DNA of 40,564 bases from Polychytrium aggregatum. Taxonomy: Eukaryota > Chytridiomycota > Chytridiomycetes > Polychytriales. The stretch spans positions 1-40,564 of the forward strand of contig NW_026516443.1 in NCBI RefSeq assembly GCF_025602895.1, written 5' to 3'. The position numbers were made by a program, and so were the translations under genes. How positions within the stretch are numbered: position 1 is the stretch's first letter; each line of letters begins with the position of its first letter. Positions 2,469 to 11,528 of the stretch are shown here, piece after piece. A model generated the notes under the pieces. The model had not been told where the DNA came from, made no database searches, and saw only the letters and a program-made list of their open reading frames with translations.

Positions 2469-2540
2469 AACAAATAGAAAGGCAAAAGAACAGCCAAGTG
2501 GGCAGTCAAAGTGGAGAACAAGCAGGAGCTATCCCTAACA

Positions 2541-3251
2541 CCATCCGTCTCGACTGACCACTCACCTTTCTTCATCATGCAAGGTCAACATCCGAGGACA
2601 CCAGCAAATGCCGAAGTGATAGACAATTCTAACCCAACACCTCGGTCCCTCGAGGAAATGAAGGCCACCCTCAGTCTCGTCTCCGACAACCTCAAGAAGG
2701 CTCAGGACAAGGCCCTCCTCTTCGCCAACCAGCGCAGAGTGGACGTCGCCTTCTACTTAGGTGACAAGGTGCTGATCGACACCTCAGCCTACCTTTTCAA
2801 CAACGGCGGCCTCAGCCCGTCGAAGATCAAGATGCCATTTCTCGGCCCTTTTTCAGTCGTCGCCAAGATTGGATCGACAGGATACAAGCTGGACCTTCCT
2901 GCAGCGATCAAGTTCTCGCCCGAGTTTCCGGCCACCGCACTCCTTCCTTACAAACTCCCTTTTCCCCACCCACAGGGCTTCGTATTCGTCCTGGTCGTCC
3001 GCGGCCGGGTTGTCGAAGTCGAAAGCCTCCTCGCCCACAGAATCAATAGGAGGTTTAAGAAGCCAAAGCGAAGACACCAGTTTCTTGTCAAATGGCAAGG
3101 CTACGACCCCAGCTGGAACTCATGGGAGCCACTGGAGCTGCTTCTCAACAACGCATTCGAATACGTTACAGAATACCTCGAGTCTCACCAGGATCTCCCT
3201 GAAGGTGAAACACTGGCGACAGTCTTCCAAGAGCACCAAGCCAGCCAGTAA
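2541..3251 (+). pseudogene. Chromovirus (Ty3/gypsy) integrase C-terminus with chromodomain
   Basis: The frame opens with a DHSPFFIMQGQHPRTP-like end of the integrase catalytic core. It continues through a GPY/F module (LGDKVLID, then FLGPFSVV...YKLDLP) and ends in a chromodomain (VEVESLLAHR ... HQFLVKWQGYDPSWNSWEP). Together these mark the 3' end of pol of a chromovirus on the plus strand. The 5' side is cut off by the LTR-like repeat ending at 2540, so protease, RT, RNase H and most of integrase are missing. The stop at 3249-3251 is followed by a G-run and an LTR. In this family the chromodomain directs integration to marked chromatin. Confidence 0.85.
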
Positions 3252-6737: not shown

Positions 6738-7130
6738 TTGCTACTTATGCCACGGAAGGGGGAGAGCAGGGTGGCTGTAGTATGCAGCGTTGGGGTTGCG
6801 ATGGGCCTCGAGGTCTTGACAGAGGCAGCCAGCCAAGAAAAAGCGGAACGGCAACAAGCCGAAACGAGTGTGTTTGGCACGTGATCGAAGCCGAATCACA
6901 CGGCGATTTCGGGAGCGACACCAGGGACGAGACCGCGGCTCGAGGTGCGATGTGAAAACCTGAAGCAGTCTGGTCAGATGCTCGAAAGAAGAGCTTGGCC
7001 AGGGACGATATGAGCCAAAGGACACGGTATTATCGATCCTCTATCACTTGAGACATATTAGCCCTCCCAACATGTTGAGAACGAAACGGGACAGCGCCTG
7101 TTCGCATCCTTTCGCTCAGCCACCACATGT
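6738..7130. other. Upstream region of the Spindly-like gene
   Basis: 393 bp between the start codon of the minus-strand gene and the left end of the transposon. It should contain that gene's promoter; I recognise no TATA box or other motif. Confidence 0.4.
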
Positions 7131-7132
7131 TA

Positions 7133-7370
7133 TTGATTTGGGGAGCGCAGTCTTAGATGTGTTATTCATTCGACCATTCGACAGCTCCAAGCAAAGCGGT
7201 CTCTTGTAGCCAATATTGTCATCATACCTGTGGGATTGGTGAATTACTTTCTTATGCTGCCTCCACGAGCCGTTCCCCGAGGCGGGCAGGAGTGTCAGTC
7301 TCTTTGAATAGGTTGTATGGTCGTGGTGAGTCGGTGTATATTTACAGGCAATCCAATAAAAAACGGGACA
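7133..7370 (+). repeat. Left terminal inverted arm
   Basis: The outer block (7133-7148) and inner block (7354-7370) are conserved with the right arm in inverse orientation. Between them the similarity is patchy (for example TCGACC and GACAGCTC, 7169-7187, recur). Conserved ends with a diverged middle suggest two transposase binding sites per arm. Confidence 0.6.
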
Positions 7371-7428
7371 CCCGGGTTTTTGACCATTCATCGAATATTT
7401 TGTTACCCAATGTTATCGCGCGCTGGCC

Positions 7429-8361
7429 ATGACCATTCGCCACACATCCGACTTTCGCACCGCCGCATTGCGATGCTACGCCCTCATCCATAGCCTGCGT
7501 AAGGTCGCCTCCATCTTCAGTGTGTCCAAGAGCACCATCCATCGATGGCACCGAGGATGCAAGCTGGATGACCCATCCCGGGTCCCAGCTCGCAGATCCA
7601 CTTTCTTCGAGCAGGCATGTCCAGTCATTCGCACCCTGATTGAACAGGACCCGTTCCAGACTGGTCCTGTGTTGCGATGCAAGCTCGAGTCCATCCTCCA
7701 GAGGAAAGTATCACTCTCACTCTGCCACACTGCCATCCACCGAGCAGGTCTCTCACACAAGAGGGCAACACACCTCTACAAGTCCAAGCGACTGGATGAG
7801 CGAGTGGCACAGTTCAGGGACCAGGTCCGCTCCATCGACCCGCGGCGATTCGTTTTTGTCGACGAGACAGGGATCAGGAGATCCATTTTCTCTCTCTACG
7901 GATACTCACCGAAGGGTGCTCCGCTTCGCCAGCGCAATCACATGAAACACAAGTCTGTCTCGGCTGCATTTGCAATCAACCACTCTGGTGTGCTGCATCG
8001 CATGTACATCCCCACATCATTCAAGACACACTCGATGGTCGAGTTCTTTGAGCGAGCGAGCTTCCCAGACGACTCTGTGATTGTGATGGACAATGTCAGC
8101 ATGCACAAGACAATGGCTGTCCTGGACTGCATCGAGCGCCGAGGATGGTCAGTGATCTTCACCCCACCTGCCTCGCCCGACTTCAATCCCATCGAGAACT
8201 TCTTTGGGGTTGTGAAGCATTAGTACAGGAAGGCAGCAGCGCTGAATGCGTCCGAGGGGTTCAGAGTCGGGATGGTGACCCTGTTTGAGTCTGCCGTTCG
8301 GAGGGTGCTTCCAGATGTCTTCCCACGGCTGATTGAGCGAGCGATGCGCTTCTGGGGTTGA
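7429..8361 (+). pseudogene. Tc1/mariner (IS630-related) DD34E transposase with one premature stop
   Basis: It reads from ATG 7429 with an N-terminal helix-turn-helix (RKVASIFSVSKSTIHRW, residues 24-40) for end binding. An RNase-H-fold catalytic domain follows with Asp145 (FVFVDETG), Asp221 (VIVMDNVSMHK) and Glu256 (SPDFNPIENFF). The spacing between the last two is 34, the classic DD34E. Residue 264 is followed by TAG at 8221-8223, yet the same frame stays open for 45 more codons to TGA at 8359-8361 and looks like genuine Tc1 C-terminus (YRKAAALN ... RLIERAMRFWG). TAG probably replaced a TGG Trp codon, since family members often have an aromatic residue here. The product would lack about 46 residues after the last catalytic residue, so activity is doubtful, but stop-codon readthrough cannot be excluded. 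Confidence 0.85.
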
Positions 8362-8474
8362 ATCACGTCAACTCCGCCATTTTCGCGTTCACATCCCTGG
8401 CTTGAACCTCTTGGCGATTTTTGAACAGGGTCACTTCCCCAACCAGCCCGCGCAGACGGGCTCCTGCTCTCGGG

Positions 8475-8480
8475 TATAAA
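8475..8480 (+). promoter_or_regulatory. TATA box of the Fanzor gene
   Basis: CGGGTATAAATG lies 67 bp upstream of the first in-frame ATG (8542) and 133 bp upstream of the preferred ATG (8608), after the transposase stop codons. It suggests the nuclease has its own promoter. Confidence 0.45.
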
Positions 8481-8607
8481 TGCCACACCTTCGTCCTGCT
8501 GCTTTCTTCCCTCATCTCGCCTTGATCGGATCATCGCGCTATTGTACGATAAAAAAAGTCTCTTCTCTGACCAGTACCACTGGCAGGCATTCACCATCCT
8601 CTGCCCC

Positions 8608-10980
8608 ATGCCTCCGAAGCGTAAGGGTACCGGTGATGGCCAGCCTCGGCCACCCAGGCCCAAGAAAGCCAAGTCACAGTCGGAGCCTGTCTCTGGTTCG
8701 TATTCTGACCCCACGCATGCTTGGTCGTCTGTTGCTCCGTCGCTCACCACCACTGCTTCTGCAGATCCAATGGATGTCGATCCCACCGAGCCTGGTCCAT
8801 CTACTTCCTCGAGTACCGGCAAGCGATGTCCCAAGTGCGATGGCACCGATCACGAACGTTGCAACACCAGCAAATGTCCCAAATACCGGCCCCTCAAGAG
8901 TTCTGTCGTCCCACTCGTGGGTGGAAGGTCATCCGCCCCTCAGTTCAGCTGCTTCAAGCAGACGATGGATGGCTGTTGTCTCAATCCCGCTCTCCGCGAC
9001 AAGATCCAGGCCACCGTCGAGGCCATGACCCAGATCCAGTTCGAGGCATCCAGGCTGCTCAACCTGCACATCCTCCGGTGCATCGAGCAGGATATTCCCG
9101 TCCCCGTCATCTCCAAGTCCACCCCTGCTTTCATCCGCCAATGCTTCACGATTGTCGAGGCCGGTGCCCTCTCGCCGACCGGGGACACCAAGAAATACAA
9201 CGAGCATCTGGTCGCTTCCTTTCGCGACTACCAGACCACTCGGCACGCAGACCTGCCTCCGGCCCCTCGTCTGCCTGATGGTGCTCACAGTCAGCTTCTC
9301 ACACTGGCTGTCAATGCCTATGCCACCAACTGCACCACCCACCTCGACCTGGCCTACTGGCGACTCCTTCGCCGCTTCTGCGCTGCCGTCTTCCCAGCCA
9401 ACAAGCACAAGCACGACGCCATCGAGGCCTGTCTCGAGCTCTTCGAGAAACCAGGGCAGACTCCACCCAAGGCCGATCTCGAGTTCCTCTATCCAGACTT
9501 TGGCCACGTCCTGGACGAGTTTCGGTACAGCAACGACCAGGACCGCTTCCGGGCCCTCCATCGCCTCTCACACCATGTGGGAATCCTCGCCCGAGACAAG
9601 ATGGTCGACAATGTCCACAAGTGGATCGACTGTGACATGCCCGCCCTCCGAGTCACCGAACTGCAGCGCCAGGCCAAGCTGGACGAGCTCACTACCCAAG
9701 GCATTCCCTCCGACGACAAGAGGTTCACCACGGCCAAGTCTGAGCTCGGCACCACCAAGGCCAAGATCAACAAGCTGGCTTCCAGACTCAACTGGGCACT
9801 CAAGCAGCTCACTCTTGACACTCCTCCGGCCGTGTGCACGATGGTTCCTCTATGCACTGCAAGGGCCAAGTATGTCAAGATTGACACGGTCACTCTCTGG
9901 CAACTCCTTGACACCGAACATCGTCTTGGACTCACCAGGGACAAGCTCAAGGATGAAGGTGAGGACGGCATCAACAACCAGGATCGTCTCTGGCGCAGTT
10001 GCTTCAAGCTGCGTAGTTCCCTCTTCCAAGAGCGGGACGTGAACAAGAAGCTGTTCAACTACGAGATCAGCACCGATGGCATTGGATGCACCATCGGTCT
10101 CGTCAAGTTTCTGCCTCGAACCGATCACACCGAGACTTCCGAGCCTCCTCCGACTGCCGAGCAACGCATCCAGGCCCACATCGGCGACCCAGACCCCAAC
10201 CGCACCACTTGGATTGGCATCGATCCTGGAGTCGGCTCCATCTTCACCGCGGTCATCCAAGCACCGGGCCACCAAGACGAGGTGGTCTCATTCTCCAATG
10301 GTCACTACCAGCACATGTGTGGCCATACGTCCAACACCAAGTGGCACAATACCATGAAGTATCGACTCAGCATCGGGACCTGGATGTCAACCACTCCCTC
10401 GCCCAAGGTGTCGTCCTCGGAGGCCTTCAAGGTCCATCTCACCCATGTCCTGCGACCGGAGCTGCGAGTGCAGCTCGACTTCCACCTTGGCAAGAAGGCC
10501 CGTCACCATCGATTCACAGGCCACAAGAGGCGCCAAGTGGCCGTTGACAAGATGTGCAAGGCCGTCCTGAGGCACGCCCCGATACGGACCGATGTGGTGA
10601 TCGCCTTTGGCAATGCGTCATGGCGACAGGGCAAGGGCTATGCATCCAGCCCTCGGAGGCAGCGGTTTGCTCGGTACTTTGAGCAATTCGAGCACCACCG
10701 ACGCCGTCCCAATCACCATCATGGAAGCGTCAAGGTGGCCTCGACGAACGAGTTCAACACCTCGCAAGTGTGCTCCAAGTGCCTGGAGCCAGTTCGGTTG
10801 GAAGGACTCGATGCGCCCAGTGTTGCGAATTCCCACTTTGTCAGGAGCTGCAAGAATCCCAGCTGCCGGACAGTGTGGAATCGCGACGTCAATGCGGCGC
10901 GCAACATGATCACAGTATGCAGGTCGATTGTGGAGACCGGAGAGCGACGTGAGGTCTTCACTCGGAGGCTGCCAAAGTGA
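8608..10980 (+). CDS. Fz1: Fanzor (TnpB-like RNA-guided endonuclease)
   Basis: 790 residues, intronless, from ATG 8608; an ATG at 8542 would add 22 residues. The start at 8608 gives MPPKRK ... PKKAK, a likely nuclear-localisation signal. A CX2CX4HX2CX4C knuckle (residues 74-90) and a helical region follow. The C-terminal half is a RuvC nuclease: Asp539 (IGIDPG, RuvC-I), Glu715 (STNEFNTSQVC) and Asp760 (NRDVNAARN, RuvC-III). A zinc ribbon, CX2C ... CX4C (722, 725, 748, 753), sits between the last two. The Glu lies just before the ribbon, the rearranged position known from Fanzors, and not in the strand ending VVIAFGNASW, where canonical TnpB has it. Fanzors cut DNA guided by an RNA from the element's 3' end. 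Every catalytic residue is present and the frame is unbroken, so it may be functional. Confidence 0.9.
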   Translation: MPPKRKGTGDGQPRPPRPKKAKSQSEPVSGSYSDPTHAWSSVAPSLTTTASADPMDVDPTEPGPSTSSSTGKRCPKCDGTDHERCNTSKCPKYRPLKSSVVPLVGGRSSAPQFSCFKQTMDGCCLNPALRDKIQATVEAMTQIQFEASRLLNLHILRCIEQDIPVPVISKSTPAFIRQCFTIVEAGALSPTGDTKKYNEHLVASFRDYQTTRHADLPPAPRLPDGAHSQLLTLAVNAYATNCTTHLDLAYWRLLRRFCAAVFPANKHKHDAIEACLELFEKPGQTPPKADLEFLYPDFGHVLDEFRYSNDQDRFRALHRLSHHVGILARDKMVDNVHKWIDCDMPALRVTELQRQAKLDELTTQGIPSDDKRFTTAKSELGTTKAKINKLASRLNWALKQLTLDTPPAVCTMVPLCTARAKYVKIDTVTLWQLLDTEHRLGLTRDKLKDEGEDGINNQDRLWRSCFKLRSSLFQERDVNKKLFNYEISTDGIGCTIGLVKFLPRTDHTETSEPPPTAEQRIQAHIGDPDPNRTTWIGIDPGVGSIFTAVIQAPGHQDEVVSFSNGHYQHMCGHTSNTKWHNTMKYRLSIGTWMSTTPSPKVSSSEAFKVHLTHVLRPELRVQLDFHLGKKARHHRFTGHKRRQVAVDKMCKAVLRHAPIRTDVVIAFGNASWRQGKGYASSPRRQRFARYFEQFEHHRRRPNHHHGSVKVASTNEFNTSQVCSKCLEPVRLEGLDAPSVANSHFVRSCKNPSCRTVWNRDVNAARNMITVCRSIVETGERREVFTRRLPK

Positions 10981-11052
10981 TCTGTTTTATTTCTTGTGGC
11001 TTTGCTTGACGCGAGCACAGCACATACTACATGTTCATGGAAACGGCTATAT

Positions 11053-11313
11053 TGTCCCGTTTTTTTCTGAATAGAGTGTAAGGATGAAGAAGTGGAACGC
11101 AGGACCTCAACCAAGGTGTTCCGTTTTGGTTTGGGCGCGCTGGAGCATTGAAGAAGCTTCATCGGAAACAGAGCCCCCTCTGAATAGGCAGGTAGTACAT
11201 ACCCAATCTGTTCCTTTGCCTCAGCTCCCTTGGTATCGAGTAACGACCAAACATTGAGCTGTCCAAAGGGTCGATTATGTATTACGTCTCACTATCGCGC
11301 TCCCCAAAATCAG
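11053..11313 (-). repeat. Right terminal inverted arm
   Basis: Read on the minus strand from 11313 it begins CTGATTTTGGGGAGCGC and ends with CAGAAAAAAACGGGACA at 11069-11053, the counterparts of the outer and inner blocks of the left arm. Confidence 0.6.
11060..11066 (+). terminator. T7 run, possible RNA polymerase III terminator
   Basis: Seven consecutive T on the plus strand inside the inner inverted repeat, 80 bp after the Fanzor stop. If the guide RNA were made by polymerase III this run would stop it here. It may equally be only part of the transposase binding site. Confidence 0.25.
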
Positions 11314-11528
11314 TAACTTGAGCCGGTTACACTCGGACGGCTGGTGAACTGTTACTGGCAGATCACTGTGTTGATGGCCGGATTGAATTGTGCAAGAGGG
11401 CAAATGGGCACCAGCTCAGTTCGTTTTGAACAACCTCCAGTATCCAAGTGTTATGGGCACCATCAGCGAGACACCCTCTGTATAGATCGAGTTTTGGAGG
11501 GTTGTTTTTCGCGATCCTCATGGAATAA

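Follow-up and report, generated by a model that had tools for sequence, protein, structure and literature searches.

Mariner elements that encode a Fanzor1 nuclease together with their transposase are already known; the described examples are PGv-1 and PUl-1 (Bao and Jurka 2013, PMC3627910). Saito et al., who characterized the Fanzor1 protein SpuFz1 of the element Spu-1 from Spizellomyces punctatus, describe the function of Fanzor in its host as unknown in their discussion (Saito 2023, PMC10432273). Here we analyze a Fanzor-bearing element in a contig of the chytrid Polychytrium aggregatum (NW_026516443.1, assembly GCF_025602895.1). The window, 40,564 nucleotides long, is the entire contig (C159 in our numbering), and the assembly comprises 64.7 Mb in 418 contigs with two haplotypes present. 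A paper on this species names strain JEL109 (PMC12115818), which may be the strain assembled here. Like PGv-1 and PUl-1 as described, the element is a TA-flanked Mariner that encodes a Mariner transposase and Fanzor1 (PMC3627910), and like Spu-1 it is a chytrid Fanzor1 between inverted ends (PMC10432273). We consider it fairly probable that it belongs to a Fanzor1-bearing Tc1/mariner (DD34E) family whose Fanzor cuts empty TTA sites, with repair then restoring or spreading the element.

The ends of the element were fixed by other copies in the genome, a check that the first-pass annotation of this DNA had suggested. With 7134-11313 as the query, the copies recovered among the 36 scored of 1310 candidates extend from about 7339-7348 to about 11080 or cover parts of that span, and 30 loci share the boundaries 7345 and 11078, with both ends located in all 30. 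Across these loci the element begins with CAGGCAATCC and finishes with AATAAAGTG, with TA outside each end. In the window's copy the TA lies at 7343-7344 and 11079-11080; among distinct sites it is present on the left at 40 of 40 and on the right at 24 of 25. The inner arms of the terminal inverted repeats (TIRs; 7342-7370 and 11053-11081) are 29 nt long and 79% complementary, and no longer inverted repeat is listed for this region. With its TIRs and flanking TA, the element is a Tc1/mariner transposon. Inverted ends flanked by TA had been annotated before, at 7354 and 11069; the ends and the TA are real, and their positions lie 9 bp further out on each side. The transposase and the Fanzor are both on the + strand, as annotated.

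The transposase is of the DD34E mariner type. Its catalytic triad, computed on the copy at one of the other loci (L002), is D145, D221 and E256, with the spacing of 34 residues between the last two that is typical of Tc1/mariner. In the window a TAG at 8221-8223 closes this frame, at a position where each of the other 29 loci fetched encodes an amino acid. The window's copy does not have the complete transposase of an autonomous element, and the TAG may be a consensus artefact. The transposase has stops or length changes in 13 of the 30 fetched loci, and several frames are open to the end. The fetched loci are the top-ranked ones and include allelic pairs, and counts of frame integrity are therefore biased.

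The Fanzor frame is uninterrupted from the ATG at 8608 to the stop codon at 10978-10980, and it has the D/E/D residues (D539, E715, D760) and the four zinc-ribbon cysteines (C722, C725, C748, C753) recognized in the first-pass annotation. An alternative place for the catalytic glutamate is a hallmark of Fanzors, as set out in the published fingerprint (PMC10711439), and the definition of Fanzor1 includes DPG at RuvC-I (PMC10711439, PMC3627910). By its residues the protein is a Fanzor1, with the catalytic D, the alternative E before a C4 zinc ribbon, RD and DPG. A PDB search with the single sequence gave weak matches only. A profile built from eight proteins matched SpuFz1 (8gkh, E=8e-30) and GtFz1 (9cer, E=6e-15), and D539, E715 and D760 fall on the corresponding SpuFz1 residues in the profile alignment. 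The best Foldseek matches of the predicted model, which has a predicted local distance difference test (pLDDT) score of only 66.5, are SpuFz1 (E=4e-16), PpFz1 and GtFz1. Thus both the sequence and the predicted fold match solved Fanzor1 structures. The Fanzor is free of extra stops in 26 of the 30 fetched loci and of indels in all 30, and 48 of 57 listed Fanzor matches have no stops, in a ranked list that favours good copies. The nuclease had been called intact: the frame is indeed unbroken over 790 residues, and intactness is supported for the family rather than for the window's copy.

A possible clue to how the nuclease selects its targets lies just outside the left end. Of 40 distinct sites, 39 have T immediately before the left TA, compared with a background of 14.5% in the flanks (P=8e-32). 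These sites come from 48 copies, of which 8 with repeated flanks were dropped, and the mutated end of one locus (L003) was set one base over by hand to read TTA. On the right side, A follows the TA (giving TAA) at 9 of 24 sites, and the two sides differ (P=1e-7). A pattern count of exact left ends gave 82 with T and 2 with another base on contigs up to C201, among the matches listed, with alleles included and copies counted irrespective of their Fanzor type. By analogy with Spu-1, in which a conserved CA precedes the left repeat and the TAM is CATA (PMC10432273), we put the chance that TTA is the target-adjacent motif (TAM) of this Fanzor slightly above even.

Elements with a related left end, CAGCC, provide a comparison. 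They match the mid-transposase probe exactly in seven cases (on C2, C24, C58, twice on C63, and on C68 and C96). Of 14 CAGCC copies probed, 11 carry a second Fanzor with 39.5% amino-acid identity to the window's Fanzor over residues 74-331. The copy on C68 has a more distant relative of the second Fanzor, and the copies on C88 and C101, which are alleles, gave no match to either Fanzor. Four copies unlike the CAGCC elements were also probed; two (C223, C252) carry the window's Fanzor and two (C34, C404) gave no match. Locations of the second Fanzor include L095 (G000 C96:13900-15000), C2:38.4k, C24:76.3k and C63:30.8k. We suspect that the occurrence of a second Fanzor behind near-identical left ends and matching transposase probes reflects exchange of nucleases between mariner chassis. 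One search gave seven distinct CAGCC sites at TA, 4 of them preceded by T and 3 by other bases, and one further site that reads TGA. The difference between 4/7 and 39/40 is significant (Fisher P=0.008), as it is if the TGA site is counted as T (P=0.012) or if only sites of the second Fanzor proper are used (3/6, P=0.005). The remaining 21 matches of the same search all read TTA (alleles included; P=0.011 versus CAGCC). Left out of these counts were the CAGCC sites CTA on C24 and ATA on C88/C101, which came from a search favouring ends without T. A TAM would be expected to leave just such a T, confined to one side and weaker in elements with a different Fanzor.

The T could instead reflect sites preferred by the transposase or by its asymmetric ends, in which case the Fanzor would take no part in site choice and would be a passenger or have some other role. 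We think this rather unlikely. The targets of Tc1/mariner elements are generally taken to be symmetric around the TA, and the bias here is one-sided and is weaker where the Fanzor differs. On the other hand, T is also enriched beside the CAGCC elements, with their similar left end and matching transposase probes (4/7 versus 14.5%, P=0.011, in a small set), and A is weakly enriched beside the right end (9/24, P=0.005). Given these two excesses, the transposase may share in the bias. In addition, all of four derivatives that lack the Fanzor but share the right end lie at TTA (4/4). Since these derivatives retain the right end, they could still guide a Fanzor acting in trans. They lie at C9:65149, C13:199791, C57:153984 and C57:730647 and share a spacing of 648 bp from mid-transposase to the right end.

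Other observations also weigh against TTA as a signal left by the nuclease. Genome-wide there are six exact-end copies without T, at five distinct sites (those on C101 and C376 are alleles). Another 12 copies without T have an end that differs by one base (6 CAGCC, 2 CAGTC and 4 other); the T counterparts of these variant ends are unlisted, and so no rate follows from the 12. One of the eight dropped repeat flanks (L027) reads TTG. Lastly, empty sites, which the first-pass annotation had hoped to find, did not appear. We searched with the joined flanks of 16 loci (15 whole and the last partial), and the 40 candidates scored out of 154 were only half-site matches, second contigs included. Thus, homing was not caught in the act, and duplication of the TA was not seen against an empty allele.

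We postulate that TTA marks sites at which the Fanzor acts after transposition. The transposase would insert the element at TA by a cut-and-paste mechanism. The right end would supply an RNA that the Fanzor binds, and the last bases of this RNA would extend into the right flank, thereby recording the insertion site. An unoccupied site would arise after excision or be present on the homologous chromosome, and the Fanzor would cut it if 5'-TTA adjoins the match to the guide. The occupied chromosome would then serve as the repair template, and the element would be copied into the cut site. If so, cutting and repair at TTA would keep and multiply the copies at TTA sites, including those with a decayed transposase. 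Active retention of copies by the Fanzor is a tentative proposal, to which we give a little less than an even chance. We also speculate, with the same reserve, that the genome bears a footprint of the Fanzor: the transposase would need only TA, and the TTA present at about 97% of the sites examined would result from the Fanzor, guided by RNA from the right end of each copy, restoring or spreading only the copies next to its TAM. The bias would then follow the Fanzor and not the transposase, because elements with a similar left end, matching transposase probes and another Fanzor have a looser motif.

The family is large. With up to 2 mismatches allowed and both haplotypes of the assembly included, there are 269 matches to the right end, 250 to mid-Fanzor, 277 to mid-transposase and 144 to the 3' part of the transposase. 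On contigs C1-C112, a Fanzor lies at the expected distance from 79 of 100 exact transposase places, and 44 of 87 exact Fanzor-probe places are without the exact transposase 3' probe. In 13 further Fanzor copies the region upstream was examined. A left end was found in 12 of them, of which 11 occupy different sites and share a deletion near the 3' end of the transposase. Fewer copies thus retain the transposase 3' probe than the Fanzor probe. Of the variants among 31 copies, the share that is nonsynonymous is 0.47 in the Fanzor and 0.43 in the transposase, compared to an expected 0.74, and the ratio of nonsynonymous to synonymous polymorphism (pN/pS) is 0.31 and 0.27, respectively. Because this ratio depends on the set of variants present in the family, it should survive any mixing of copies in the assembly. 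The pattern points to purifying selection and, with the bias in insertion sites, supports a working family.

Individual copies are less readily interpreted. In six allelic pairs the flanks are 99.5-100% identical, except the right flank of one pair (L012/L025, 94.9%), and the elements are 96-99% identical, with nearly identical ends and interiors 1.1-4.1% apart. One such pair with interior differences is window 7345-11078 and the copy on contig C2 (from 249844). Among 25 non-allelic copies, r2 beyond 10 bp is 0.04-0.065 versus 0.040 after shuffling, and all four allele combinations occur in 72-79% of site pairs. By region, r2 reaches 0.16 at the left end (few pairs) and 0.18 in mid-Fanzor at 11-15 bp, and interior sites are near linkage equilibrium past about 15 bp. 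We first read the interior differences as allelic gene conversion driven by the nuclease, and rejected this because the loss of linkage implies implausibly short tracts. A search for a close donor of the C2 interior found none among 40 scored of 1106 candidates. On these two grounds we treat the differences as a mixed consensus: the draft probably averages reads of many copies, which would produce such a loss of linkage, and ordinary descent or conversion should not. Extensive conversion is accordingly the less probable source of the differences between haplotypes. Repeat-induced point mutation (RIP) or deamination was also rejected as a source, since transitions make up only 54-70% of the differences. 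Under a mixed consensus, neither "this copy is intact" nor "this copy has a stop" is proven for the window's element. The flanks are unique sequence and should be unaffected.

Averaging also bears on whether the family is dead, with its copies relics, its open frames a product of averaged assembly, and nothing now moving or cutting. The absence of an empty allele for the 16 loci (among the 40 of 154 candidates scored), the mixed appearance of each copy's letters with linkage almost gone past 15 bp, and the stop in the window's transposase would all fit such a family. However, if the letters are averages, open frames in 48 of the 57 places of a ranked list suggest that most of the underlying copies are open, and the low pN/pS of both genes and the several transposase frames open to the end also argue against it. 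We consider a dead family improbable.

The right end of the element is where a working Fanzor would be expected to find its RNA. In SpuFz1, the omega-RNA region is likewise 3' of the stop codon, and the guide is 14-15 nt (PMC10432273). By analogy, we consider the end of the window's element a weak candidate for an omega-RNA scaffold, with a predicted guide starting at 11081, which is narrower than the region of 10.7-11.35 kb annotated earlier. The fold z score is -1.61 for 10981-11080, and -0.19 and -0.20 for two overlapping stretches. Comparison of the right end among copies showed no compensatory pairs, which leaves the predicted hairpins without support from covariation and counts against the proposal, and a search of Rfam gave nothing relevant.

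The element is nested in an older structure. The outer arms (7126-7187 and 11256-11320) form an inverted repeat of about 62 bp, whose score of 36 exceeds the maximum of 31 in 2000 mononucleotide shuffles, and so are not due to chance. The first-pass annotation took ends at 7133 and 11313 to bound a composite Tc1/mariner transposon carrying Fanzor. Such a unit would move as a whole, and the significance of the arms is in keeping with it. However, copies end at 7345 and 11078, and in a search confined to the left flank, 7134-7346 matched only its own locus and the allele of that locus. The allele lies on contig C2, apparently the other haplotype, with the same insertion present (the element copy there starts at 249844). 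The flanks at the other 39 distinct sites differ from the window's. These results already contradict a composite, which is very improbable; the Tc1/mariner with an open Fanzor1 stands, as a nested insertion. By its sequence, the element is inserted into an older inverted-repeat relic, and the outer arms belong to the insertion site.

Features of the element and its insertion site, with positions in the window
Feature	Position	Strand	Basis
Fanzor-bearing Tc1/mariner element, 3734 bp, in TA	7345..11078	+	Ends common to 30 loci
Transposase, DDE_3, DD34E	7429..8361	+	Pfam DDE_3 E=2e-22; TAG at 8221-8223 here
Fanzor1 nuclease, 790 aa	8608..10980	+	Pfam Cas12f1-like_TNB E=6.5e-9; profile and Foldseek matches
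Catalytic Asp D539, RuvC-I, GIDPG	10222..10224	+	Invariant in 8 aligned proteins; on SpuFz1 Asp
Catalytic Glu E715 in the alternative place, six residues ahead of the zinc ribbon	10750..10752	+	Alignment; fingerprint PMC10711439
Four-cysteine zinc ribbon C722, C725, C748, C753	10771..10866	+	Alignment
Catalytic Asp D760, NRD	10885..10887	+	Alignment, SpuFz1 profile match
TTA beside left end (T + TA), proposed Fanzor TAM	7342..7344	+	39/40 distinct sites
Left terminal inverted repeat	7345..7370	+	Arms 7342-7370 / 11053-11081
Right terminal inverted repeat	11053..11078	+	269 right-end matches at <=2 mismatches
Right-hand TA copy	11079..11080	+	TA in 24/25 right flanks
Candidate omega-RNA scaffold between the stop codon and the end of the element; two predicted hairpins	10981..11080	+	Position as in SpuFz1; weak
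Predicted guide, first ~15 right-flank bases	11081..11095	+	Inferred from SpuFz1 guide of 14-15 nt
Left arm, older inverted repeat hosting insertion	7126..7187	.	Shuffle score; left flank only here and in allele
Right arm, same older inverted repeat	11256..11320	.	Shuffle score

Several other observations concern the surroundings of the element and relatives of its nuclease. The window contains a Gypsy-type remnant with a chromodomain and SH3_Tf2-1 (2478-3251). The remnant is low-copy, its nearest relative besides the allele is 78% identical, and near the contig end the two haplotypes differ by about 5%. The right flanks of L012 (83-453) and L023 (84-179) contain fragments of diverged Fanzor relatives (69-76% DNA identity), within about 500 bp of family copies. 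Three NCBI gene models of Polychytrium (P0006, P0007 and P0009) appear to join pieces of Fanzor to unrelated host domains. A search of viral contigs for relatives gave one weak relative only. In the main texts of the Fanzor literature examined, Polychytrium was not found, nor were Fanzor and Chytridiomycota found together in the main texts searched; supplements may list the proteins.

What is new here is an informative genomic setting for a known type of element, Mariner with Fanzor1. A family with 250 matches to the Fanzor probe, on a transposase that targets TA, allows the motif of the nuclease to be separated from that of the transposase. IS605 elements do not allow this separation if the TAM equals the target site. 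The setting also yields concrete predictions, a TAM of TTA and a guide starting at 11081, and the second Fanzor behind similar ends is a natural comparison. If our proposal is true, it would provide genomic evidence for a role of a eukaryotic RNA-guided nuclease in retention or homing inside a cut-and-paste transposon.

The locus differs from each of the described systems in ways that bear on this proposal. PGv-1 is described as single-copy and viral (PMC3627910), in contrast to the many Fanzor matches in this fungal assembly, and, unlike PGv-1 and PUl-1 as described, similar left ends and transposase probes occur here with at least two Fanzors. In Spu-1, as in the window's element, bases outside the left repeat are conserved and the distance from the stop codon to the right end is short (75-80 nt there and 98 nt here; PMC10432273). 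However, no transposase was found inside Spu-1 according to that report, and the bases conserved upstream of its left repeat are CA, with CATA as the TAM, where the window's element has a T (PMC10432273). SpuFz1 and the Fanzor here match at the profile level, with 17% identity in Foldseek. The predicted Fanzor1 fold is shared with GtFz1 and PpFz1 (Xu 2024, PMC11423790), whose reported TAMs are different (TTAAN for GtFz1, PMC10432273, and ATN for PpFz1, PMC11423790), and the third catalytic residue is Asp here and Asn in GtFz1 (PMC11423790). Lastly, the mechanism that we propose resembles the gene drive described for TnpB of IS200/IS605 elements, in that a guide would record the site and cutting of empty sites would favour the element (PMC11870625). 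Those elements are bacterial and come with functional data (PMC11870625), whereas the one described here is a eukaryotic DDE cut-and-paste element read from its sequence.

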